Assembly (NCBI GenBank): GCA_947496375.1
Contig: CANMCY010000005.1
Coordinates: 1-64,000 of the forward strand
DNA length: 64,000 bases
DNA from: Flavobacteriales bacterium
GTDB taxonomy: Bacteria; Bacteroidota; Bacteroidia; NS11-12g; UBA955
Direction: 5' to 3'
The translations under genes were made by a program, and so were the position numbers. Shown piece by piece: positions 383-35,812 of the stretch (position 1 is the stretch's first letter; every line of letters starts with the position of its first letter). Under the pieces are notes generated by a model. That model was not told where the DNA came from. It saw only the letters and a list, made by a program, of their open reading frames with translations, and searched no databases.

Positions 383-2678
383 TCCGCATCTTAGCAAACT
401 TCAACACCAGCTTTTTCTCACCCAGTCCTTCAAACAGCACGGTGGCTTTCCTATTATCGGCATCGCCGTCTACCGCAATGACAGTGCCGTGGCCAAACCG
501 CTGATGCGTGACTTTATCCCCGGCTTTTAAACCGCTGATATCGCCGGGTTCAAAGTTAGGGTCTGGTTCCGGTAGGTTGGTATTGCGCGAGGGGGCCGTT
601 CCCAGTAATGTTGAAATCGGTGTTTTTTCTGTGCCTTGTCGGTTTTCCCGCCGTTCGAATAATGCATTGAGCGGATTTTCTTTTTTGAGTCCGGCCAGGT
701 TCATGTCCAGATACTGATTGTCTATTTCATCAATAAACCGGCTGGGTTCGCATGGCATAAGACTTCCGTATCTAAACCGACTGCTGGCATAGCAAAGGGT
801 GAGTGCTTTTTCCGCACGGGTAATGGCTACATAAAACAAACGTCTCTCTTCTTCCAGGTCTGCCCGTGATGTCAGAGCCATCTGAGATGGGAACAGGTTT
901 TCCTCCAGGCCACCAATAAAAACATGTGGAAACTCCAGCCCTTTGCTGCTGTGTATGGTCATTAAACTCACGCAATCCCTATCCGGGTCCTTGTCTTTCT
1001 GATCATCGGTATACAAAGCCACCTCTTCCAGAAAGTTGGAAAGCGTTTTTTCTTTTTCGCTTTCATCATCTTCCGTAAATTCCTGAATGCCATTTAGCAA
1101 TTCAGTCACATTCTCATACCGGCTAATGCCTTCCACGGTTTTATCATCGTACAGGGTTTTTAGCAAGGTGGTTTGTTTGGCCACGTGGGTAGCCATATCA
1201 AACGCATTGTGGGTTTCGGTCATAGCCATGAAGCTTTTCATCATCATGGCAAAATTCTCTACCCTGCTTGCACCGGTGCCCAGATCGGGGTAGTTGCGGG
1301 CATTGGCCACAATATCCCAGATTCCGGTTTTATTTTCAGAAGCCAGAAACAGCAGCCGGTTTACGGTTGTGTCTCCAATACCCCTCGCAGGATAATTGAT
1401 TATGCGTTTAAGGGCTTCTTCATCGTTTGGGTTGACCGTCAATCGGAGGTAGGAGAGTAGGTCCTTGATTTCCTTTCGCTGATAGAAACTCGTGCCACCG
1501 TATATGCGGTAATCAATGCTTTGTCTTCTCAGGGCTTCCTCAAAACTGCGGCTTTGGCTGTTCGTTCTGTACAGAATGGCAAATGCCTTGTTGGGCAAAT
1601 GTTTCTGGTTTTTCTGTTCAATGATTTGCTGGGCTACAAAGCGGGCCTCATCACTATCGGTAGCTGAGCGCACCACTTTGATTTTATCGCCCGTTTCATT
1701 GGATGTCCATACCTCTTTTTCCAGTTGTTTTCGGTTGTTTTTGATTACGCTGGAGGCAGCATTGACAATATTTCGGGTGCTCCGGTAGTTTTGTTCCAGT
1801 TTCACCGTAAATACATCCGGATAGTCTCGATTAAAGTTTAGGATGTTTTGGATGTTGGCACCCCGGAATGCATAAATACTCTGAGCATCATCCCCTACCA
1901 CACAGATATTCTGATGTACCGCTGCAATCCGCTTGGTTATCATGTATTGCACCGTATTGGTGTCCTGATACTCGTCTACCATTACATACTTGAAGCGATG
2001 TTGCCATTTATGGCACACATCGGGGTGTTTTTCCAGCAGCAGGTAGGTGTTAATGAGTATATCATCAAAATCCATGGCACCGGCTCGGAAACAACGTTCG
2101 GTGTAGGTTTTGAAAATTTCAGCGAATTTGGGCCGGTTGGCGTTTTTGTCTTGCTGATTGAGCTCCTCATTTTTGTAATAGGATGCTGCTGTAATCAGGT
2201 TGTTTTTTGCCATGCTGATTCTCCCCAGAACCATTCCCGGCTTATACGTTTTGTCATCAAGATTCATTTCTTTCAAAATGCCCTTGATAAGACTTTTGCT
2301 ATCGTCGGTATCGTAAATGGTGAAGTTGGAGGGATAACCCAGTTTATCCGCTTCCTGCCTAAGGATTCTGGCAAAAACGCTGTGAAATGTTCCCATCCAC
2401 AAACTCTTGGCTGCAGCCCCAACCAAATTTTCAATGCGGTTGCGCATTTCGCGGGCTGCTTTGTTGGTGAAGGTGAGGGACAAGATGCTGAACGGATCGG
2501 CTCCCTTTTGCAATAGGTGGGCTATGCGGAAGGTCAATACGCGTGTTTTCCCGGATCCTGCACCGGCAATAATCATCACAGGACCGTCTACATGGGTTAC
2601 GGCCTGCCGCTGAGGATCGTTTAGTTTTTCCAGGTAAGGCGGAATGTCATCAGGTTCGTTTTGGTCAGGCCAACGCAT
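372..2678 (-). CDS. UvrD/PcrA-type superfamily 1 DNA helicase
   Basis: ATP-dependent 3'-5' DNA helicase for repair and replication restart. The 768 residues match the usual PcrA/UvrD length. Visible motifs in order: Walker A GAGSGKTR (about 39-46), Walker B VDEYQD (about 233-238), motif III GDDAQSIYAFRGA, motif IV QNYRST, then the C-terminal motifs MTIHSSKGLEF and YVAITRA. The last 50 residues (GDKVTHQRFGHGTV onward) form the small Tudor-like domain that binds RNA polymerase in PcrA. ATG start at 2678. It is divergent from the dioxygenase-like gene, with 117 bp between. Whether it is best named pcrA or uvrD cannot be settled by eye. Confidence 0.95.
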   Translation of the reverse strand: MRWPDQNEPDDIPPYLEKLNDPQRQAVTHVDGPVMIIAGAGSGKTRVLTFRIAHLLQKGADPFSILSLTFTNKAAREMRNRIENLVGAAAKSLWMGTFHSVFARILRQEADKLGYPSNFTIYDTDDSKSLIKGILKEMNLDDKTYKPGMVLGRISMAKNNLITAASYYKNEELNQQDKNANRPKFAEIFKTYTERCFRAGAMDFDDILINTYLLLEKHPDVCHKWQHRFKYVMVDEYQDTNTVQYMITKRIAAVHQNICVVGDDAQSIYAFRGANIQNILNFNRDYPDVFTVKLEQNYRSTRNIVNAASSVIKNNRKQLEKEVWTSNETGDKIKVVRSATDSDEARFVAQQIIEQKNQKHLPNKAFAILYRTNSQSRSFEEALRRQSIDYRIYGGTSFYQRKEIKDLLSYLRLTVNPNDEEALKRIINYPARGIGDTTVNRLLFLASENKTGIWDIVANARNYPDLGTGASRVENFAMMMKSFMAMTETHNAFDMATHVAKQTTLLKTLYDDKTVEGISRYENVTELLNGIQEFTEDDESEKEKTLSNFLEEVALYTDDQKDKDPDRDCVSLMTIHSSKGLEFPHVFIGGLEENLFPSQMALTSRADLEEERRLFYVAITRAEKALTLCYASSRFRYGSLMPCEPSRFIDEIDNQYLDMNLAGLKKENPLNALFERRENRQGTEKTPISTLLGTAPSRNTNLPEPDPNFEPGDISGLKAGDKVTHQRFGHGTVIAVDGDADNRKATVLFEGLGEKKLVLKFAKMRIIG

Positions 2679-2753
2679 AGAGAACTACAAAATTACTGCA
2701 GCATTGTTGCCGCCTGTAAAACACTTTTGCACAGTTCATGCCCAAAAAAAATA

Positions 2754-2784
2754 TTGCAGGTTGGTCTTTTTAATTGTAAATTTG
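2754..2784 (+). promoter_or_regulatory. Bacteroidota sigma-A promoter
   Basis: TTG at 2754-2756, a 20-nt spacer and TAAATTTG at 2777-2784, an exact match to the Bacteroidota -33/-7 consensus (TTG, about 20, TAnnTTTG). The ATG of the following gene is at 2796, so the expected transcript start (5-8 nt after the -7 box) leaves a leader of only a few bases. Confidence 0.8.
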
Positions 2785-2795
2785 TTTAAACAAAC

Positions 2796-3686
2796 ATGAA
2801 AAGGCGCGCTTTTTTACATGGATTGTGTGTGCTACCGCTTGGTACTATGGTAAAAGATATAAAGATATTGCAAGAATGGGTTGATGGCACCCCGGCTACA
2901 GTGCGTCAGCCGGTGTTGTTTATTGGTCATGGCAGCCCCATGAATGCCATAGAATCCAATCCTTACACTATGGCTTTACGGGAAATAGGGGCCCGAATTT
3001 TAGAAAGAAACAGGCCCATAGCGGCAATGGTAGTTTCGGCCCATTGGCTCACCCGCGGTACTTTGGTGCAGAAGTCCGCAGCCCCTGAAATAATATATGA
3101 TTTTGGAGGATTCCCGGACGAACTTTACAAGGTGCAGTACCCGGTTGCAGGGAACCCGAATATCGCAACAGATACTGCCTCGCTGATAGCAGGTGCAATG
3201 CCGACAGAAGACTGGGGCCTCGACCATGGGGCATGGGCAGTACTAAAACACCTGTTTCCCAAGGCAGATATTCCCAGTTTCCAAATGAGTATTGACTGGG
3301 GTAAACCCATGTTGCATCACTATGAATTGGCCGGAATGTTATCTGCATTGAGGGAAAGAGGTGTCCTAATCATAGGCAGTGGTAACATCGTGCATAATTT
3401 GGGTGTTAGTATTCCCATGCTGGGCAGCGGTAATCGAAAGCCTTTTGATTGGGCTGTTGAGTTTGATGCATGGGTAGCCAATGCGCTGCAAAACGGCGAT
3501 TATCGAAAATTAACATCATACGAAAGTGCCGGCAAAATGGGCTTACTGTCGGTGCCTTCTCCGGATCATTATATTCCTCTGCTCTACACGCTTGGCTTGG
3601 CTCGCCCGGGTGAAAGCGCCCGAACTTTTTATGAGAGTGTAGAGTATGGCGGTATCAGCATGCGCAGTTTTATTGTTGATTCCTAA
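2796..3686 (+). CDS. 4,5-DOPA-extradiol-dioxygenase-like protein (LigB/YgiD family)
   Basis: Member of the class III extradiol dioxygenase superfamily, whose enzymes open catechol rings using an active-site metal. Family signatures: LFIGHGSPMNAIE (about 46-58), VVSAHWLTRG, DYDFGGFP-like YDFGGFPDELY, LDHGAWAVL and GSGNIVHNL; the conserved His residues in these are the metal and catalytic ligands of the family. It starts MKRRAFLHGLCVLP, which resembles a Tat signal (RRxFL plus a short hydrophobic stretch), as often seen in Bacteroidota homologues, so it may be exported. 296 residues. Monocistronic behind an exact promoter. The natural substrate is unknown; activity on L-DOPA is known for E. coli YgiD only. 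Confidence 0.88.
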   Translation: MKRRAFLHGLCVLPLGTMVKDIKILQEWVDGTPATVRQPVLFIGHGSPMNAIESNPYTMALREIGARILERNRPIAAMVVSAHWLTRGTLVQKSAAPEIIYDFGGFPDELYKVQYPVAGNPNIATDTASLIAGAMPTEDWGLDHGAWAVLKHLFPKADIPSFQMSIDWGKPMLHHYELAGMLSALRERGVLIIGSGNIVHNLGVSIPMLGSGNRKPFDWAVEFDAWVANALQNGDYRKLTSYESAGKMGLLSVPSPDHYIPLLYTLGLARPGESARTFYESVEYGGISMRSFIVDS

Positions 3687-13091: not shown

Positions 13092-14354
13092 TCAGTGGGT
13101 TGATATTTCGTTGAGAGCGGAAACCAAAGCATCCAGGTCTTCAATGGTATTGCTTAAATGAGGCGTAATTCTGACACCTTTGATAGCGGGATGATCGATG
13201 GCAACGGTAAAAATTCTGTATTTTGAGAATAAAATGTCTGCCAGTGCTCCGGGTGTGTATCCGTCTACCGATACATTGGCAATTGCACCACAACGTTTGG
13301 GATCTTCCCAGGGCGTATTTATGCTGATTCTATTTTGATTTGCCACTTTCGATGTCCAGTATTGCATCATATACCGAAGTCGTTTTTCTTTGAGTGTACT
13401 CCCTATTTTGTGGTGAAAATCGATGGATTCGGGAATGCACTGCAGTGTTTGAATAGGCCGTGTTCCCACATGCTCAAATCGTCTGATGTTATTCATGGGC
13501 TGGGTTGTATCTCCCATCAGTGGCCATAATATTGGGATATGCTCTTTTCGCATCCACAAAAAGCCCGAACCCAGGGGGTTACAAAGCCATTTATGTAAAC
13601 TGGCTCCTACAAAATCGGCCTGAAGATCGGCTAAGCCAAATTCCAGCTGGGCCACAGCATGCGCGGAATCAACGGCTACCATGATGTTGTTTTTTTTGGC
13701 CTCCTGTGCAATTTTTGCCACCGGAATCACCTGGCCTGAAAGGTTAATCATGTGGGTGAGGTGAACCATTTTGGTTTTTCGGGTAAACAAACGTTTGTAA
13801 GCTTCGGTCACATCCTCATCGCTGTTGGGGCGAAGCGGCACCTCTGCATATTTTAGTGTGATTCCAAATCGCTTGGATGCCTGTTGGAATGCCTCGGTCA
13901 TGCTCCCATAATCCTGATTGCCGAGCACCACTTCATCTCCTTTTTTCCAAGGAAATCCCATGATGATAATATTCATGGCTTCGGTAGTGTTACGCACCAA
14001 TGCCAGCTCTTCCGCATCGCATGTTAGAAAACCGGCCAGGGCTGTTCTGGCTGATTCTATGGCTTGCTGTTGCTCTCTGCGCATGAACAGACTGGTTCGG
14101 GTATTGATGTCGTTTTCTTTGAGATGATGAAACGATAGCGTGGATGCGGGCTGGTGACTAAAATACCCATTTTCCAGATTGATGAATCCTTCAGGCCTTG
14201 AAAACAGGGCTCTCACAGCGTTCCAGTAATTTTCATCGGTTTCACCGTTCTGCAGGTGCGGTGGCATGGGCAGAGCAAGGGTGTTGAAGAATGATGGGAT
14301 TAGGGCAGTTCCGGACAGCGCCACTGAACCAGAGATGAAATCGCGACGGTGCAT
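13092..14354 (-). CDS. exported PLP-dependent class V aminotransferase (isopenicillin-N-epimerase-like)
   Basis: 420 residues. The N-terminus MHRRDFISGSVALSGTALIP has a twin-arginine motif (RRDFI) and a hydrophobic stretch, so the folded PLP enzyme is probably exported by Tat. Core motifs: RNTTEAMNIII, GDEVVLGNQDYGS, VDSAHAVAQLEF (Asp binding the PLP nitrogen) and SLHKWL with the Schiff-base Lys near residue 253. Relatives include cysteine desulfurase-like proteins and isopenicillin N epimerase. No catalytic Cys loop of a desulfurase was seen, so epimerase or lyase chemistry on an amino acid or peptide is more likely. Substrate unknown. Confidence 0.85.
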   Translation of the reverse strand: MHRRDFISGSVALSGTALIPSFFNTLALPMPPHLQNGETDENYWNAVRALFSRPEGFINLENGYFSHQPASTLSFHHLKENDINTRTSLFMRREQQQAIESARTALAGFLTCDAEELALVRNTTEAMNIIIMGFPWKKGDEVVLGNQDYGSMTEAFQQASKRFGITLKYAEVPLRPNSDEDVTEAYKRLFTRKTKMVHLTHMINLSGQVIPVAKIAQEAKKNNIMVAVDSAHAVAQLEFGLADLQADFVGASLHKWLCNPLGSGFLWMRKEHIPILWPLMGDTTQPMNNIRRFEHVGTRPIQTLQCIPESIDFHHKIGSTLKEKRLRYMMQYWTSKVANQNRISINTPWEDPKRCGAIANVSVDGYTPGALADILFSKYRIFTVAIDHPAIKGVRITPHLSNTIEDLDALVSALNEISTH

Positions 14355-14381: not shown

Positions 14382-15143
14382 TTAAATCATATCCTTAGGC
14401 AAATTTTCTTCGCCGGGTTTGTAATGCTCCCTGAGTTCGGCCGGTGATTGCGTTTTACGATGCATGCGCATCTGAAGCAAATCTACCAGGAATGAAAATG
14501 CCATGGCGAAATAAATATATCCCTTAGGGATTTCAAGACCCCAGCCCTCGGCAATGAGGGAAAAGCCAATCAGCAATAAAAACGCCAGCGCCAGCATCTT
14601 AAATGCGGGGTGTTTATTGACAAAATTACTGATAGGGCTTGCGGCAAACAGCATCATCACTACAGAGAAAATAACGGCAACATACATTACCCATAATTCT
14701 TTAACCATGCCAATGGCGGTGATAATGGAATCAATGGAAAATACCAGATCCATGATGAGAATCTGAAAAATAACCGAGCTTAAACCGGCTTTTTTTATTT
14801 TTGAAGAAACATCGCCTGATTCGCCTTCTGTTTTGTGGTAAATTTCAGCAACACTTTTGTACAGCAGAAATAATCCCCCGGAAATCAAAATTAAATCTTT
14901 GCCTGTGAAACCTTTTCCCATCAGGGAAAAGAGCGGTTCTTTCAGTTGCATAATCAGCGAAATGATGCCCAGTAATGCCAATCTTAGGATTCCGGCCAGT
15001 ATCAGACCGATTCGCCTTGCTTTTCTTTGCTGCTCTTTTGGCAGTTTTGATGCAAGAATGGAAATGAAAATGACATTATCTATACCCAATACTGCTTCCA
15101 GCAACACTAGGGTAAAAATGGAAAGGATTATTTCAAGTTCCAT
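14382..15143 (-). CDS. TerC-family integral membrane protein
   Basis: 253 residues, about seven membrane helices. Two repeated signatures with intramembrane Asp: LLEAVLGIDNVIFISIL (about 15-31) and LIMDLVFSIDSIITAIG (about 130-146). TerC proteins are linked to tellurite resistance and, in several bacteria, to manganese export or metallation of exported proteins. The polar C-terminus (TQSPAELREHYKPGEENLP) is cytoplasmic or regulatory. Only 4 bp after the recJ stop codon and 27 bp before the Tat-type aminotransferase gene, so co-transcribed with both. Confidence 0.9.
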   Translation of the reverse strand: MELEIILSIFTLVLLEAVLGIDNVIFISILASKLPKEQQRKARRIGLILAGILRLALLGIISLIMQLKEPLFSLMGKGFTGKDLILISGGLFLLYKSVAEIYHKTEGESGDVSSKIKKAGLSSVIFQILIMDLVFSIDSIITAIGMVKELWVMYVAVIFSVVMMLFAASPISNFVNKHPAFKMLALAFLLLIGFSLIAEGWGLEIPKGYIYFAMAFSFLVDLLQMRMHRKTQSPAELREHYKPGEENLPKDMI

Positions 15144-15147
15144 GCAT

Positions 15148-16845
15148 TCAGGACTTAATGTCTTTTAATTTCAACTGAAGATTGGTTCTGCCGTTGAAGG
15201 TGTTTTCTTCTATGCAGTAGCAGGCATGAAAAGTTTGTCTGTTGCTTACTGCATGGATGTGATGACTCATTCCAAAACCAATACTGTCAAGTCCCGCGGA
15301 ATGCTGGTGAACCATCATTTTTAGATGCTTATCCTTTAGTACCCGGGCAGAACTGTTGGAATTCAGGTTGTCACTTCTGAAAACCGGTATCATATTTCCA
15401 GGGCCAAATGGGGCCATCTGATCAATGATGTTTAGCATTTTGGGGTTAATGTCGTTAAGCGAAATCTGAAGGTCGTATTCTATTTCCGGAAGCGTGGGAA
15501 CGCCATCAGCTTTTTGTTTCACCACATCTTCAAACCGCTTTGCAAAGACTTCAAAATTCTCAGTCCGTATGGATAGTCCGGCCGCATACTTATGGCCTCC
15601 GTATTGTTCCACCACATCGCTGCAGGCGCCTATGGCTTCGTGAATGTCAAAATCCTTCACGCTGCGGGCGGAACCGGTGAGCATGCCATCGTTTTCAGAA
15701 AATACGATGGTTGGTTTGTAAAATTGCTCTACCAGGCGGCTGGCAACAATCCCAATAACTCCCTTATGCCATTGGTTCCCAAACAGTACGGTACTCTTTT
15801 TGGCCAGTAATTCTGCACTGTTTTCCACCAGAGATATGGCTTCCCGTGTGATGTCGTTGTCCAGTTCCTTACGCTCATGGTTGCGTTCCTGAAGCACTTT
15901 GGCCAGTTTTCTGGCGGTGTTAAAATCTTTTTCAATCAGCACTGCCACTGCAGCTTAGGCATCGGCAATACGACCGGCGGCATTAATACGCGGGCCGATT
16001 CCGAATACGATATCAGAAATGGATAGTGAGCTTTTTTGCTGATATCCCTCCAGAAGTGCCTGAATTCCCAAAGAGGGATTTTCGTTTATCTTTTTTAGCC
16101 CAAAATAGGCAAGGGTGCGGTTCTCTCCCCGAATGTCTACCAAATCACTGGCTATGCTAACCGCCACCATGTCAATATATTCCATGATGCTATCCAGTGG
16201 CAGGTCGTGTTTTTCGGCAAATGCCTGTATCAGCTTGAATCCAATGCCGGCACCCGATAACTCTTTGTATGGATATTCACAATCCTTCCTTTTGGGGTTG
16301 AGCACCGCGGCGGCATTCGGAATGGTACTACCGGGCAGGTGGTGATCGCAAATAATGAAATCTACACCCTTGGTGTTTGCATAGTCAATCAGGTCATTGG
16401 ATCGAATTCCGCAATCAAGGGCGATGATTAGTCCAAATCCGTTATCTGCCGCATAATCAATTCCCATTTTACTAATGCCGTAACCCTCCCGATATCTGTC
16501 GGGTATATAGTAATCGATTTCACCGGTATGCCGATTTCTGAGAAAGCTGTATACAATGCTGACGGCAGTAGTGCCATCCACATCATAATCTCCAAAAACC
16601 ATGATTTTTTCGGCATGGGTGATGGCTTTGTCAATGCGTGCAATCGCTTTTTCCATGTCCCGCATGAGAAAAGGGTCGTGTAGATCTTCGATTTTTGGAC
16701 GAAAGAATTTTTCCGCCTGCTGATAAGTTTCAATGCCTCGCTGTACAAGAATTGTGGCCAGGTAGGGATGAACGTTTATTTCCTGGGAAAGACGTGCAAC
16801 TTTTTCTTCGGGGGGGAGGGGTTTTGCACGCCAGACGAATTCCAT
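15148..16845 (-). pseudogene. recJ: recJ, single-strand DNA exonuclease, interrupted by one in-frame TAA
   Basis: RecJ degrades single-stranded DNA 5'-3' in recombination and mismatch repair. The first 296 codons (from ATG 16845) carry the DHH domain: GDYDVDGTTA, DCGIRSNDLI, CDHHLPG and GPRINAAGRIADA. Then TAA (15955-15957) interrupts the frame, which continues without a shift into VLIEKDFNTARKLA, HKGVIGIVASR, TGSARS and the DHHA1 motif GGHKYAAG to the stop at 15148. Together about 564 residues, the normal RecJ length. Aligned to family consensus from memory, the stop replaces exactly one residue; AAA (Lys) to TAA is the simplest origin. A GTG at 15946-15948 could restart the second half. Could be a true nonsense mutation, a sequencing error, or a split two-protein RecJ. 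Confidence 0.88.
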
Positions 16846-18917: not shown

Positions 18918-20024
18918 GTGAAGATTGCAATATTAAAAGAAACCCGTGAGCGAGAGCAGCGGGTAGCCGTATCGCCTCAGGTGGCTGCTGCCTGGGTTAA
19001 ACAGGGTTTTGAAATTTCGGTGGAATCAGGTGCCGGCGCCGGTAGCTGGTTTACTGATCAGCTATATACAGACGGCGGTGCCTCGATTGGCACTCAGAAA
19101 GAAGTGCTCAGTAGAGCCGGTATTGTTATGAAAATCAATCCGCCAACTGCTGAAGAGATTGCCGCAATGCCTGAAGGATGTCTGCTTTGCAGTCTGCTGT
19201 ATCACAGAAGTAACCCTGAAATAATAGCCGCACTGAATGCTAAAAAAATATCAGCGGTTTCGCTGGATGCAATTCCCCGGATTTCCAGGGCCCAGGCCAT
19301 GGATGTGCTAAGCTCACAGTCGAACCTTGCCGGTTATATGGCCGTTATCAAGGGCGCCGGTTACCTGGATAAAATATTCCCGTTGTTGATGACGGCTGCC
19401 GGAACCATTACTCCGGCGCGCGTGTTGATTTTTGGTGTGGGTGTAGCCGGTTTGCAAGCCATTGCCACGGCCAAGCGCTTGGGCGCGGTTGTTGAAGCCA
19501 CCGACGTTCGTCCCGAAACCAAAGAGCAGGTGGAATCGTTGGGAGGCAAATTCATAGAGGTAAAGGGCGCTGAAGTGGGTAGTGAAGGTGGTTACGCCAA
19601 AGAGGCGACCGAAGAATATCGTGCAAAACAAAGAGAAGCTGTCAATAAATCGTTAGCCCAGGCCGATCTGGTCATTACCACGGCACTGGTTCCCGGTAGG
19701 AAGGCCCCGATTTTGGTGGATGAAGAGCAGGTGGGCATGATGAAGCCGGGATCAGTATTGATAGACATGGCGGCAGAACAAGGTGGCAACTGTGTATATA
19801 CAAAAGAATATGAAGTGGTAAATCATAATGGGGTTAGGATTGTAGGTGCTGCTAACATGGCGGCTGAATTACCTATCAATGCCAGTGAACTGTTTGCCAA
19901 AAACCTGGTGGAGCTAATGAAACTGATTGCTCCAAAATCAGAATTGGTATTGGATGTGAATGATGAAATTGTGGCCGGTTGTCTCGTGTGCCATGAGGGG
20001 GCTGTAAGATTGGCTGCGGGTTAA
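18918..20024 (+). CDS. pntAA: proton-translocating NAD(P) transhydrogenase, subunit alpha part 1
   Basis: NAD(H)-binding subunit of the membrane transhydrogenase that uses the proton gradient to make NADPH from NADH. 368 residues with a GTG start (VKIAILKETR...). Signatures: ILKETRERE, SGAGAGSWF, the NAD-binding GVGVAGLQAIATAKRLGA (about 172-189), and ALVPGRKAPILV and SVLIDMAAEQGGNC near the end. The alpha chain is split into soluble (AA) and membrane (AB) parts, as in Rhodospirillum. First gene of a three-gene operon; pntAB begins 19 bp on. Confidence 0.95.
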   Translation: MKIAILKETREREQRVAVSPQVAAAWVKQGFEISVESGAGAGSWFTDQLYTDGGASIGTQKEVLSRAGIVMKINPPTAEEIAAMPEGCLLCSLLYHRSNPEIIAALNAKKISAVSLDAIPRISRAQAMDVLSSQSNLAGYMAVIKGAGYLDKIFPLLMTAAGTITPARVLIFGVGVAGLQAIATAKRLGAVVEATDVRPETKEQVESLGGKFIEVKGAEVGSEGGYAKEATEEYRAKQREAVNKSLAQADLVITTALVPGRKAPILVDEEQVGMMKPGSVLIDMAAEQGGNCVYTKEYEVVNHNGVRIVGAANMAAELPINASELFAKNLVELMKLIAPKSELVLDVNDEIVAGCLVCHEGAVRLAAG

Positions 20025-20043
20025 AATAAATTATCAATAAGAA

Positions 20044-20370
20044 ATGGACTTAATATTCAACTTTATAGGCGAGAATATCTCAATGATATATCTCGTAATC
20101 CTCATGGTTTTTGTGGGGATTGAACTGATAGGGCATGTGCCCAGTGTGCTCCACACACCCCTTATGAGCGGTGCGAACGCCATACATGGTGTGGTATTGA
20201 TAGGCGCCATATATGTGCTGGGCCATGCTGAAGAAAACGATACTTTTAGTCTCATAGTGGGCTTTATTGGCGTAATTGTGGGAACCCTGAATGTAATCGG
20301 CGGATTTGTGGTTACCGACCGCATGCTTGAAATGTTTAAGAAAAAACCCGGGAAAGGAGCCAAATCGTGA
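20044..20370 (+). CDS. pntAB: NAD(P) transhydrogenase, subunit alpha part 2
   Basis: 108-residue membrane subunit with three or four helices (about 13-30, 40-58, 65-95), containing conserved IELIGHVPSVLHTPLMSGANA (about 20-40), which lines the proton path. It ends GKGAKS, and its TGA overlaps the GTG start of pntB (GTGA, 20367-20370). Together with pntAA and pntB it forms the complete transhydrogenase. Confidence 0.95.
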   Translation: MDLIFNFIGENISMIYLVILMVFVGIELIGHVPSVLHTPLMSGANAIHGVVLIGAIYVLGHAEENDTFSLIVGFIGVIVGTLNVIGGFVVTDRMLEMFKKKPGKGAKS

Positions 20371-21773
20371 GGCATTTTCAGGAAGTGTTATTTCTATTGG
20401 GTTCACTGGGATTTGTAGTGGGCCTGAAGATGATGGGTAAACCGGATAGCGCCCGTAAAGGCAATCTGGTGGCTGCAGTCGGTATGCTTTTCGCTGTTCT
20501 GGGTATAATGTTTTTCAAACACGGCGAGGAAGGTATTCACGTAGTAAATAATGTAGGACTGATTTCAGCTGCCATTGGTGTTGGAACGCTGGTGGGCTGG
20601 CTGATGGCCAAACGAGTACAGATGACAGCTATGCCCGAAATGGTTTCTCTATTCAATGGTATGGGTGGTTTGTGTGCAGCATTGATATCGCTGCTGGAAT
20701 GGAAATTTAAAGGGGATTCTATTGCCACTATGCCTGCAGGTGAATACCTGGCAATTATTGCAGGTCTTATCATTGGTACCGTATCGTTTGTGGGCAGCAT
20801 TGTAGCGTGGGGTAAGCTCAGCGGTAAACTGGGAGATTTTAGGTTTCCCGGACAGCAGTTTATTAACATCATTATGCTGCTTGCCATAGTAGGTGCTGCC
20901 TGGATGAACTTTGGTGCCGCCGCCGATAACAATATGCTTTATTTCTATCTGGTAATTGTTTTGGCAGCAGTTTACGGTTTACTGTTTGTGTTTCCTATCG
21001 GAGGTGCAGACATGCCTGTGGTTATTTCGTTGCTCAACTCATTTACCGGTGTGGCTGCTGCCTGCGGTGGATTTTTATACCACAACAATGTAATGCTGAT
21101 GGGTGGAGTACTGGTGGGTTCTGCAGGTACTATCCTTACCATCGTAATGTGCAAAGCCATGAATCGCAGTCTTACCAATGTGTTAATTGGTGCCGTTGGC
21201 GGAAGTTCTGTTGCTGCGTCTTCAGGCGGTAAATCCGGTGGCAGTGTTCGTGAGGTGCAGGCAACCGATGTGGCCATTTTGATGAAATATGCCCAAAAAG
21301 TGATTGTAGTGCCCGGTTATGGTCTGGCAGTTGCACAGGCGCAGCATGTAGTGCATGAGCTGGAGGGATTGCTTGAAGCCGAAGGGGTGGAGGTGAAATA
21401 TGCCATTCATCCTGTAGCGGGTCGTATGCCGGGTCACATGAATGTGTTGCTGGCTGAGAGCAACGTTAGTTATGATAAGCTCGTGGAAATGGAGCATATC
21501 AACCCAGAGTTTGCTACAACGGATGTGGTCCTGGTGGTAGGTGCAAATGATGTGGTGAACCCCGCAGCCAAAACCGATCCGTCAAGCCCAATTTATGGTA
21601 TGCCCATTCTGGATGTAGAAAACGCCAAACAGGTTATCGTATTGAAGCGAAGTATGAAATCCGGTTATGCGGGTATTGAAAATGAACTTTTCTACAACAG
21701 CAAGTGCGGCATGTTGTTTGGCGATGCCAAAGAAAGCCTGCAAAAGCTGGTGAATGAGGTAAAAACACTGTAA
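20367..21773 (+). CDS. pntB: NAD(P) transhydrogenase, subunit beta
   Basis: 468 residues, GTG start overlapping the pntAB stop codon. About eight or nine membrane helices in the first 270 residues, then the NADP(H)-binding domain: VIVVPGYGLAVAQAQH (about 310-326), HPVAGRMPGHMNVLLAE, VVLVVGANDVVNPAAKTD, and GYAGIENELFY near the end. All three chains are intact and in the standard order, so the operon should encode a working NADPH source. Confidence 0.95.
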   Translation: MRHFQEVLFLLGSLGFVVGLKMMGKPDSARKGNLVAAVGMLFAVLGIMFFKHGEEGIHVVNNVGLISAAIGVGTLVGWLMAKRVQMTAMPEMVSLFNGMGGLCAALISLLEWKFKGDSIATMPAGEYLAIIAGLIIGTVSFVGSIVAWGKLSGKLGDFRFPGQQFINIIMLLAIVGAAWMNFGAAADNNMLYFYLVIVLAAVYGLLFVFPIGGADMPVVISLLNSFTGVAAACGGFLYHNNVMLMGGVLVGSAGTILTIVMCKAMNRSLTNVLIGAVGGSSVAASSGGKSGGSVREVQATDVAILMKYAQKVIVVPGYGLAVAQAQHVVHELEGLLEAEGVEVKYAIHPVAGRMPGHMNVLLAESNVSYDKLVEMEHINPEFATTDVVLVVGANDVVNPAAKTDPSSPIYGMPILDVENAKQVIVLKRSMKSGYAGIENELFYNSKCGMLFGDAKESLQKLVNEVKTL

Positions 21774-27564: not shown

Positions 27565-29061
27565 TTAGTGCTTGAAATGACGTATACCTGTCATCACCAT
27601 GGCAATGTTGTTTTCATTGCAATAGTCAATGCTTGCCTTGTCTTTGATGCTTCCACCGGGCTGAACCACCGCTTTAATTCCGGCTTTATCGGCAATTTCT
27701 ACGCAGTCAGGGAAAGGGAAGAACGCATCGGATGCCATCACAGCGCCTTCCAGGTCAAACCCAAAACGACCCGCTTTTTCAATGGCCTGGTTTAGCGCAT
27801 CTACCCGGCTGGTTTGTCCGGTACCGCTGGCCAGAAGCTGTTTGTTTTTCACCAGTACGATGGTATTGCTTTTGGTGTGCTTTACAATTTTGAGGGCAAA
27901 CTCAAGGTCTGAAAATTGCGCATCGGTAGGCACCTGATCTGTTGCGGGCTTCATGTCGGTAGCAGAGGAAAGGGCATTATCACGATCCTGAACCAGTTCT
28001 CCGTTTAAAACAGTTCTGATCATTTGCTGCTTGAATGCCCCGTTATGGGTTTTCAGCAATATGCGGTTGGTTTTTGTCTGAAGAATCTGCATGGCTCCCG
28101 GGGTGAAATCATCGGCCATCAGCACTTCAAAGAAAAGGGTATCTATCTTGCGGGCGGTTGCCTCGTCTACAGTAGTATTGATGGCCAGAATACCTCCAAA
28201 TGCCGATACCGGATCGCAGGATAGGGCTGCATCCCAAGCTGCTTCCGCAGTTTCACGGGTTGCCACACCGCAGGCATTGTTGTGTTTTACTATCACGCAG
28301 GTAACACCCCTGTTTTTATCAAAATCTCGCAACAGGCATAGCGCACTGTCCACATCCAGCAGGTTATTATAGCTGAGTTCTTTGCCTTGTAATTTGGTGA
28401 AAATAGCATCAGGGTTACCCTTGAAAACAGCTTTCTGATGTGGGTTTTCACCATAACGCAACGGGTGACTTTGGGTACCATCAAACCAGTCGGCAATTTG
28501 CCTGTCGTAATGGGCTGTGGTATTGAACGCCCTGCGGGCAAGTTCTTTTCTTTCGCTGATGTTCAATGAGCCGTTGCCATTGTTGTATTTATCCAGGAAC
28601 CAGCCGTAGTCTGCTTTATCGCTGATGATACAGGTGTGATTGAAATTTTTAGCACCTGCCCGAATTAAGGAAACGCCGCCTATGTCTATTTTTTCAATGA
28701 CTTCCTGTTCGCTGCCACCGGCATTCACGGTTTCTGTGAAAGGGTATAAATCAACGATTACAAGGTCCAACAACGGGATTTCATACTGCGTAGTTTCCGA
28801 TAAATCCTGCTGGTTTTCACGGCGAGCCAGAATTCCTCCAAACACTTTAGGATGAAGGGTTTTAACCCTTCCACCCAGGATGCTTGGATAGCCGGTTACA
28901 TGTTCAATTCCGGTGCAGGGAATACCCAAATCTTCAATAAATTTCTGGGTTCCTCCGGTGCTGTAAATGGTTACCTTATTTTGATGAAGGGCACGAACGA
29001 TGGGCTCAAGACCGTCTTTGTAAAAAACAGAAATCAGCGCAGATTTGATTTTAACATCCAC
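27565..29061 (-). CDS. purH: bifunctional AICAR transformylase/IMP cyclohydrolase
   Basis: Last two steps of IMP synthesis. 498 residues; the N-terminal cyclohydrolase domain (IKSALISVF, YSTGGTQKFIED, HPKVFGGIL, DLVIVDLYPF, GGVSLIRAGAKN) and the C-terminal transformylase domain (LRYGENPHQKA, KHNNACGVA, VSAFGGILA, VVQPGGSIKD, GIRHFKH at the end) are both intact. The start is GTG at 29061 (VDVKIKSAL); the ATG two bases downstream is out of frame. The -7-like TAATTTCG lies 3 nt upstream of this GTG. Confidence 0.95.
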   Translation of the reverse strand: MDVKIKSALISVFYKDGLEPIVRALHQNKVTIYSTGGTQKFIEDLGIPCTGIEHVTGYPSILGGRVKTLHPKVFGGILARRENQQDLSETTQYEIPLLDLVIVDLYPFTETVNAGGSEQEVIEKIDIGGVSLIRAGAKNFNHTCIISDKADYGWFLDKYNNGNGSLNISERKELARRAFNTTAHYDRQIADWFDGTQSHPLRYGENPHQKAVFKGNPDAIFTKLQGKELSYNNLLDVDSALCLLRDFDKNRGVTCVIVKHNNACGVATRETAEAAWDAALSCDPVSAFGGILAINTTVDEATARKIDTLFFEVLMADDFTPGAMQILQTKTNRILLKTHNGAFKQQMIRTVLNGELVQDRDNALSSATDMKPATDQVPTDAQFSDLEFALKIVKHTKSNTIVLVKNKQLLASGTGQTSRVDALNQAIEKAGRFGFDLEGAVMASDAFFPFPDCVEIADKAGIKAVVQPGGSIKDKASIDYCNENNIAMVMTGIRHFKH

Positions 29062-29064
29062 TGT

Positions 29065-29073
29065 GCGAAATTA
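29065..29073 (-). promoter_or_regulatory. possible variant -7 element TAATTTCGC for purH
   Basis: Reads TAATTTCGC on the minus strand, one base off TAnnTTTG. The same nine bases precede secA and typA. It ends 3 nt before the purH GTG, so a leaderless transcript is possible. Confidence 0.4.
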
Positions 29074-29136
29074 GCTTTCAAAAAACAGGAACGGATGTAG
29101 ATTGTCACAAAGGTTTTTACATTTTGTACACAAACC

Positions 29137-32672
<3,536 letters not shown>

Positions 32673-32785: not shown

Positions 32786-32802
32786 GACTTTTTCAGGAAT
32801 TT

Positions 32803-33243
32803 TTATTTAACCGGAATTTTTTTGGAGGTAGTAATGGCCTCCACATACTTTTTGTTTAGGTTAATATTTAAAATTCCATCGGTGTAGGTGGCTTTTATAC
32901 TGTCTTTCTCGCAGTTCTCAGGCAGTGCAAATGAACGTTGAAATGCTTGGTAACTGAATTCCTTTCTGAGAAATTTACCCTCCAGTTTTTCCTCTTTCTG
33001 TTCTTTCTTTTCTGTGGAAATGGTCAATACGTTGTTTTGCAGTTCAATGTTGAAGTCATCCCTTTTCATTCCCGGTGCAGCCAGCTCTATTCTGTAATCT
33101 TTGTCTGACTCTCTCACATTGACGGATGGGGTTGTAGTGGTCAAATCTCCGTCCCATTCCAGCAAATCTTTGTTCAGGAAATCTTCCCACAGGGAGGTGA
33201 ATGCCGGAAACATCCGGGCGGTGGTGGTGGCTAATGTGCTCAT
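32803..33243 (-). CDS. small heat shock protein, Hsp20/alpha-crystallin family
   Basis: ATP-independent holdase chaperone, 146 residues. The alpha-crystallin domain runs from about 38 to 135: VNVRESDKDYRIELAAPGMKR-type start (PGMKRDDFNIELQNNVLTI), then FSYQAFQRSFALPENC, YTDGILNINL near the end. N-terminal arm about 35 residues. A sequence close to the -7 consensus (CAACTTTG) lies upstream; no CIRCE-type inverted repeat was seen, so the heat control mechanism is unclear. Confidence 0.93.
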   Translation of the reverse strand: MSTLATTTARMFPAFTSLWEDFLNKDLLEWDGDLTTTTPSVNVRESDKDYRIELAAPGMKRDDFNIELQNNVLTISTEKKEQKEEKLEGKFLRKEFSYQAFQRSFALPENCEKDSIKATYTDGILNINLNKKYVEAITTSKKIPVK

Positions 33244-33409
33244 GATTGTATATTTAAAATGTTGGACTGCAAAGTTGAAATCTGGGGAGGGCGTCCGTAA
33301 TGATTAAGGTCAAAACCGGTGATGTTTTTAATTCCCGGTATATTGGGCCCGTAAGGTATTTTTTTATTTTTTGTTGAACTTTTGGTCCGGTAAATTGTTT
33401 AAGTTTTAT

Positions 33410-35812
33410 ATGCGATACGTAATTGTTTCCATTTTGGCATTGCTCACGTCTTCTGTTTTTTCTCAGAATATTGTCATCAAAGGCGTTGTAAAAGATGCCG
33501 CTACCAATGCCCCGGTTTCTAAGGCAGAGGTGAAAATTTTAAAAACCGAGGTTTCCGGAATTTCAGATTCTGCTGGTAATTTCCTGCTCATGCTTTCTGA
33601 ACCGGGCTTTTATGTGATTGCGGCAACAAAAGAGGGTTACAATGACGGTTTTGCAGCAGAGATGTTGTTTACCTATGATAAAAGTCCATTTGTTCAAATC
33701 AGCATGGAAAGCGCAAGCAAAAGCATTGGTACGGTCAATATTTCTCGTAGCGCCATTCAGGCACGAAGGGCAGAGAGTCCGGTGGGTGCTCAGTCATTGA
33801 GCATTCGTGAAATTGAGCGAAATCCTGGGGGTAACCGCGATATCAGTAAAATTGTGCAATCCCTGCCTGGAGTTATCAGTGTACCGAGCTTTCGTAATGA
33901 CATCGTTATCAGAGGTGGTTCTCCCGCAGAAAATAAATTTTACCTGGATGGTTTTGAAATTCCTGTAATTAATCATTTTCAAACCCAGGGCAGTACCGGT
34001 GGTCCGGTAGGGATTCTGAATGTTAATTTTATTAAAGATGTTAACTTCTACACTGGTGCGTTTCCCATAAATTACGCCAATGGAATGAGTTCTGTAGTGG
34101 ATTTCAGGCAGATTGAAGGTAACAGCGAAAAGCCCAAATTTCGTTTCACACTGGGCAGCTCCGATCTGGGTTTTACGGCAGACGGGCCTTTGGGGAAATC
34201 TAAGAAAACTACTTTCATCGTTTCGGCTCGTCAGAGCTATCTGCAAGGGTTGTTTACCCTCTTGAAATTGCCTTTTCTTCCCAATTTTATTGATTATCAG
34301 GCCAAGGTAAAAACGAAGCTGAGTGATAAATCCGAGCTCAATGTGGTACTATTGGGAGCCGTTGATTATATACGGTTAAATGAAAAGGTGATTGAAGGCA
34401 TCACTGATACATTAACCCTTAAGTCCAATCAGTATATACTGGGCTATATCCCCGATTATCAGCAATGGAATTACATGATTGGTGCTTCCTATACCTATTT
34501 CGGAAAATCCAAGCATCAGGTGTTTCTGAGCCGAAATATGCTGAGTAACATCAATACAAAGTATCAAAACAATGATGAATCGGATCCGGCCAAGAAAATT
34601 TTGGATTACCGCAGCACGGAAGAGGAGAACAAACTCCGATATGAACAGTCTAGGCGCTATGGCCGCTGGTCTGTAATGAACGGGGGAGGGTTTGAATTTT
34701 CACAGTACGGTAATAAAACATTTAACCGAATCAGCACACCACTGGGACCACAGACTATCAATTTTCAGAGTGACCTGAATGTGGTAAAGTACAATCTATT
34801 CAGCAAGTGGAGCCGCAGTTTTTCTTCAGGTGCCATGGTGGCAATGGGCTTTAGACTTGATGGTTCAGGATACAATACCTCCACTGCCAATCCCCTAAAT
34901 CAGCCCGGAATATCGCTGTCGGCCTCTGTTCCTGTGGCAAATGGTATATTTTTTAATGCGAATGTGGGGCGCTTTCACCAGTTGCCTGCCTACACACTGC
35001 TGGGTTACAGAGACAGCATGGGTTCACTGGCCAATAAGTCCCATCTGCAATACCTTCAAAACAGCATGGCTGCAGCGGGATTCCAGTACAACTACGGATT
35101 GGAAACCAAAATTACCCTGGAGGGTTTTTATAAGCAATACCGTCGCTATCCGGTAGGTCTTCGCGAGGGAATTAGTTTGGGTAATTTGGGTGGAGATTTC
35201 ACCATTGTAGGCAACGAGCCGGTGATTTTTAACGGCACAGGCCGCGCGTATGGCATGGAGTTTCTGGTGCAGCGCAGAAGTCGCAAAGGACTTTATGGTA
35301 TTGCAAGCTACACGCTTTGCTGGAGTAGTTTTGCCGACCCTCAGGGCAAGCTGGTAGCCAGCGCATGGGATAGTCGGCATACAGTTGTCCTGACCGGTGG
35401 TATGAAACTGAAGCGAAACTGGGAATTGGGCGTTAAATGGCGCTTTATAACCGGAAGACCTTTTACCCCGTATGATACCAACCGATCACTGGCCAAATAC
35501 AGCTGGGATGTGGTTGGGCAGGCAGTTCCTGATTATCGCCGGTTGAATACGCTCAGGGTGGGAAATTTTAATCAGTTTGATGTAAGGGTTGATAAAGTTT
35601 GGTATTTCAGGAAAAGTTCACTAAATTTATATATCGATATCCAGAACTTTTTCAATACGCAGTATGTGGGACCAAACACACTCGTGGCTGCCCGCAATGC
35701 CAATGGAGCATTGATATCAGATCCATCCAACCCCTTGCAGTATCAAGCCGACTTTTTACCCAATACCTCCGGTACATTGCTGCCCACCATTGGTGTGATT
35801 CTGGACTTTTAA
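33410..35812 (+). CDS. TonB-dependent outer-membrane receptor with carboxypeptidase-like N-domain
   Basis: Outer-membrane transporter energised by TonB. 800 residues from ATG 33410, which gives the signal peptide MRYVIVSILALLTSSVFSQN; an upstream start would add 13 residues ahead of it. Order: carboxypeptidase-regulatory-like domain (IKGVVKDAATNAPVSKAEV, about 25-105), plug domain (SAIQARRAESPVGAQSL..., VIRGGSPAENKFYLDGFEIP), and a beta-barrel to the C-terminus, ending TLLPTIGVILDF. No SusD-like gene is beside it, so it is not a typical SusCD glycan importer; substrate unknown (siderophore, metal or cobalamin are possible). Confidence 0.92.
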   Translation: MRYVIVSILALLTSSVFSQNIVIKGVVKDAATNAPVSKAEVKILKTEVSGISDSAGNFLLMLSEPGFYVIAATKEGYNDGFAAEMLFTYDKSPFVQISMESASKSIGTVNISRSAIQARRAESPVGAQSLSIREIERNPGGNRDISKIVQSLPGVISVPSFRNDIVIRGGSPAENKFYLDGFEIPVINHFQTQGSTGGPVGILNVNFIKDVNFYTGAFPINYANGMSSVVDFRQIEGNSEKPKFRFTLGSSDLGFTADGPLGKSKKTTFIVSARQSYLQGLFTLLKLPFLPNFIDYQAKVKTKLSDKSELNVVLLGAVDYIRLNEKVIEGITDTLTLKSNQYILGYIPDYQQWNYMIGASYTYFGKSKHQVFLSRNMLSNINTKYQNNDESDPAKKILDYRSTEEENKLRYEQSRRYGRWSVMNGGGFEFSQYGNKTFNRISTPLGPQTINFQSDLNVVKYNLFSKWSRSFSSGAMVAMGFRLDGSGYNTSTANPLNQPGISLSASVPVANGIFFNANVGRFHQLPAYTLLGYRDSMGSLANKSHLQYLQNSMAAAGFQYNYGLETKITLEGFYKQYRRYPVGLREGISLGNLGGDFTIVGNEPVIFNGTGRAYGMEFLVQRRSRKGLYGIASYTLCWSSFADPQGKLVASAWDSRHTVVLTGGMKLKRNWELGVKWRFITGRPFTPYDTNRSLAKYSWDVVGQAVPDYRRLNTLRVGNFNQFDVRVDKVWYFRKSSLNLYIDIQNFFNTQYVGPNTLVAARNANGALISDPSNPLQYQADFLPNTSGTLLPTIGVILDF

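Follow-up and report, generated by a model that had tools for sequence, protein, structure and literature searches.

The recJ gene of an uncultured freshwater Flavobacteriales bacterium is interrupted by one in-frame TAA, at codon 297, on the minus strand of the window (the whole 64,000-nucleotide stretch analysed here). The stop is found in no other genome compared, it lies in the only copy of the gene, and no decay is visible elsewhere in the frame. On balance we slightly favour the view that this is a real, very recent and private nonsense substitution, in which case translation would halt after 296 residues and RecJ activity would most likely be lost. We infer that the base is real; the absence of decay is explained equally well by an error in the assembled sequence. 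A private nonsense allele is nevertheless somewhat more likely than a base error, and with neither would recJ be a new kind of split gene.

One stop codon in an otherwise open recJ frame

The recJ frame comprises 565 codons followed by TGA, and the TAA, flanked in frame by GRIADA and AAVAVLIEKD, is its sole interruption; there are no frameshifts and no other stops within the 565 codons. An earlier note had described a single in-frame stop that splits recJ without a frameshift and had attributed it to a one-base change from AAA to TAA. Both statements are borne out, the frame being otherwise open throughout and the codon being AAA in the four closest relatives; the GTG that the note placed just beyond the stop is also where it was reported (Table 1).

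The two halves match positions 2–276 and 279–546 of the TIGR00644 recJ model (546 positions), and either half alone scores below the whole-protein cut-off. The DHH (PF01368), DHHA1 (PF02272) and RecJ_OB (PF17768) domains are all present, spread over the two reading-frame pieces. When joined, the pieces align over nearly their full length with bacterial RecJ proteins (TIGR00644; Deinococcus radiodurans RecJ, 5f54/5f55/5f56; RecJ of 8y30), with DHH, DHHA1 and OB domains in the identical order. Unlike those proteins, the window recJ is not one continuous reading frame, as a single stop interrupts it past DHH motif V and ahead of the linker helix. The search for a second recJ proposed in the earlier note was run and none was found in this genome. 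The only other DHH-family protein, on contig C4, was considered for this role and rejected, as its motifs suggest a putative NrnA-type enzyme.

Table 1. Features of the recJ region (positions in the window)
Feature	Position	Strand	Basis or remark
recJ frame, interrupted once	15148..16845	-	TIGR00644 across both halves
In-frame TAA, codon 297	15955..15957	-	Lys (AAA/AAG) in six genus relatives
N-terminal piece, 296 aa: DHH domain, motifs I–V	15958..16845	-	PF01368; motif V via drRecJ alignment
C-terminal piece, 268 codons: linker helix, DHHA1, RecJ OB fold	15148..15954	-	PF02272, PF17768
GTG six bases past TAA, possible restart codon; Val of AAVAVL	15946..15948	-	GTG in some relatives
terC (name from the earlier note), starts 5 bases past recJ stop	14382..15143	-	Arrangement same in G002
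Aminotransferase-like gene (name from the earlier note, putative family), downstream of terC	13092..14354	-	ORF; order kept in G002

At this codon all six relatives in the same genus have lysine (AAA in five, AAG in one), and none has the stop. More distant relatives carry Lys, Thr, Asn, Arg or Gly, and never a stop. A whole-protein search of the order, covering 108 genomes, gave a recJ match in 102, among which this genome alone has an internal stop in an intact-looking recJ; the count leaves aside a frameshift-ridden second recJ copy at a contig end in genome G103. The closest records are uncultured Bacteroidota assemblies, several of them apparently lake-derived judging by their isolate names.

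The second copy in G103 (L151, G103:C15:44000-48500, about 1472–3188) lies near the contig end and is scattered over several frames. It is near-identical to a partial copy on G103:C12 that is free of stops in the matched part, and is probably a product of low-quality consensus at the contig end. The damage is quite unlike the lone substitution in the window recJ.

Age of the stop and reliability of the base

The part of the gene past the stop showed no relaxation of selection in its distances to the four nearest relatives. Nonsynonymous distances of the C-terminal half from the window to G002, G003, G004 and G005 were 0.061–0.075, as compared with 0.047–0.082 among those four genomes themselves; synonymous sites were at or near saturation, and dN/dS ratios were not computable for most pairs. 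The terminal branch of this half was 0.048 for the window and 0.048–0.063 for the intact relatives, and in neither half does the window differ at a position that is invariant in the other 40 sequences. An old pseudogene was rejected on these grounds, there being neither relaxed constraint nor further lesions. Because constraint on the sequence past the stop matches that seen in intact relatives, these comparisons indicate that the stop is either very recent or not real. If real, it resembles the recent nonsense alleles (incipient pseudogenes) of other bacterial genomes, which likewise consist of a single substitution, show no further decay and are private to one genome; the sole distinguishing feature here is that a single-copy repair gene has been struck.

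A base-call or consensus error, or a minority allele caught in the assembly, would leave the organism with an intact recJ. We regard this as a serious possibility, less probable than a genuine substitution. The sequence is a single base away from an intact frame, there is no other damage, both halves are fully constrained, and recJ is present in 63 of the 64 good-quality genomes of the order. Against it, no other lesion was detected when 92.7 kb of coding DNA from this genome was set against the ORFs of three relatives (132 ORF comparisons). Frameshifts were absent from this sample, in which recJ is the only broken gene; the other stops encountered lay either within 32 codons of the start of mechanically called ORFs, where the called ORF begins upstream of the probable gene start, or, in one ORF, at the final one or two codons. 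This survey argues against a generally poor assembly and is compatible with an isolated base error. Since the genome statistics are also of high quality (99.99% complete, 0.05% contaminated, 47 contigs), and no other internal stop or frameshift occurs in the 92.7 kb, we do not take a base error as the default. Moreover, about 4% of random substitutions in the window genes yield a stop, so that a single stop created by error would imply about 25 further errors that went unseen, barring a chance hit; arguments of this kind from error rates are biased, as the case was selected for showing a stop. The literature was also searched for work on stop codons in assembled metagenomes, with no result.

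On contig C8 of G003, at about 19635–21073, 28716–32058 and 32797–35323, several genes are broken into two or three pieces, each of these genes being a single ORF in the window or in G002. The breaks are probably frameshift errors of the G003 assembly.

Readthrough and translational restart

Full-length RecJ would still be made if the TAA were read through or recoded, as might be suspected from the continued constraint on both halves and from a stable hairpin around the stop: the RNA at 15900–16020 (minus strand) folds better than its shuffles (z −2.3), with the stop within the hairpin loop. The hairpin is not conserved in the relatives, however, nor was a conserved readthrough signal found in them, and the 33 tRNA matches include no ochre-anticodon tRNA that could act as a suppressor reading TAA. 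Neither a stop conserved among orthologues nor a suppressor tRNA or conserved stimulatory structure, as expected of a recoded gene, was found. TAA as a recoded codon was rejected, as it is the main stop of the window, terminating 25 of the 43 large ORFs. Regulated readthrough or recoding is disfavoured by this evidence, and we consider it very improbable.

An evolved two-piece RecJ, in which ribosomes would stop at the TAA, resume at the GTG six bases downstream and so yield two fragments that combine into an active nuclease, appears scarcely more plausible. Bacterial ribosomes commonly reinitiate when the intercistronic distance is short (PMC5972666), an in-frame GTG lies nearby, and the break falls at a domain boundary; a further reinitiation paper (PMC4648390) concerns eukaryotic ribosomes and does not bear on this case. 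Nevertheless, this GTG is a conserved, pre-existing valine codon that is also GTG in some intact relatives, no relative shares the split, and there is no sign of adaptation to it, features that disfavour such an arrangement. From the consequences listed in the earlier note, sequencing error and loss of RecJ thus survive, while a two-piece RecJ and readthrough do not fare well.

Consequences for RecJ and its neighbours

In the alignment with D. radiodurans RecJ (drRecJ), the TAA falls near residue 285, as counted from Arg280, which places it just downstream of motif V and ahead of the linker helix. Arg280 belongs to motif V, and helix 296–327 connects DHH to DHHA1; in drRecJ, Arg280 acts together with Ser371 and Arg373 of motif VI to hold the phosphate (PMC4846377). 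The N-terminal piece keeps the DHH domain and is without the DHHA1 residues equivalent to Ser371 and Arg373 and without the OB fold. Because of these missing elements, loss of RecJ activity is the simplest interpretation if the base is real. With a genuine nonsense allele, the product would be a DHH-domain fragment devoid of linker helix, DHHA1 and OB domains, the 5'-3' single-strand exonuclease activity would most likely be lost, and the cell would rely on the other nucleases and helicases that it still encodes. Recombination genes found in the genome include those for the ExoVII large subunit, RecQ, RecF and a 1061-aa PDDEXK_1 protein.

In G002, too, recJ, terC and the aminotransferase gene follow one another in this order on a single strand, and a polar effect of the stop on the two downstream genes is therefore possible.

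Free-living bacteria can lose recJ, as in Prochlorococcus MED4 (PMC551534), a free-living aquatic bacterium. There recJ is gone from a reduced genome, whereas the window recJ carries a fresh point lesion. A single base in the assembly of one genome should not be taken for gene fission. If the base is real, this is a lineage whose only RecJ has just been lost while the other recombination genes that were checked remain, and it would provide a natural test of the dispensability of RecJ.
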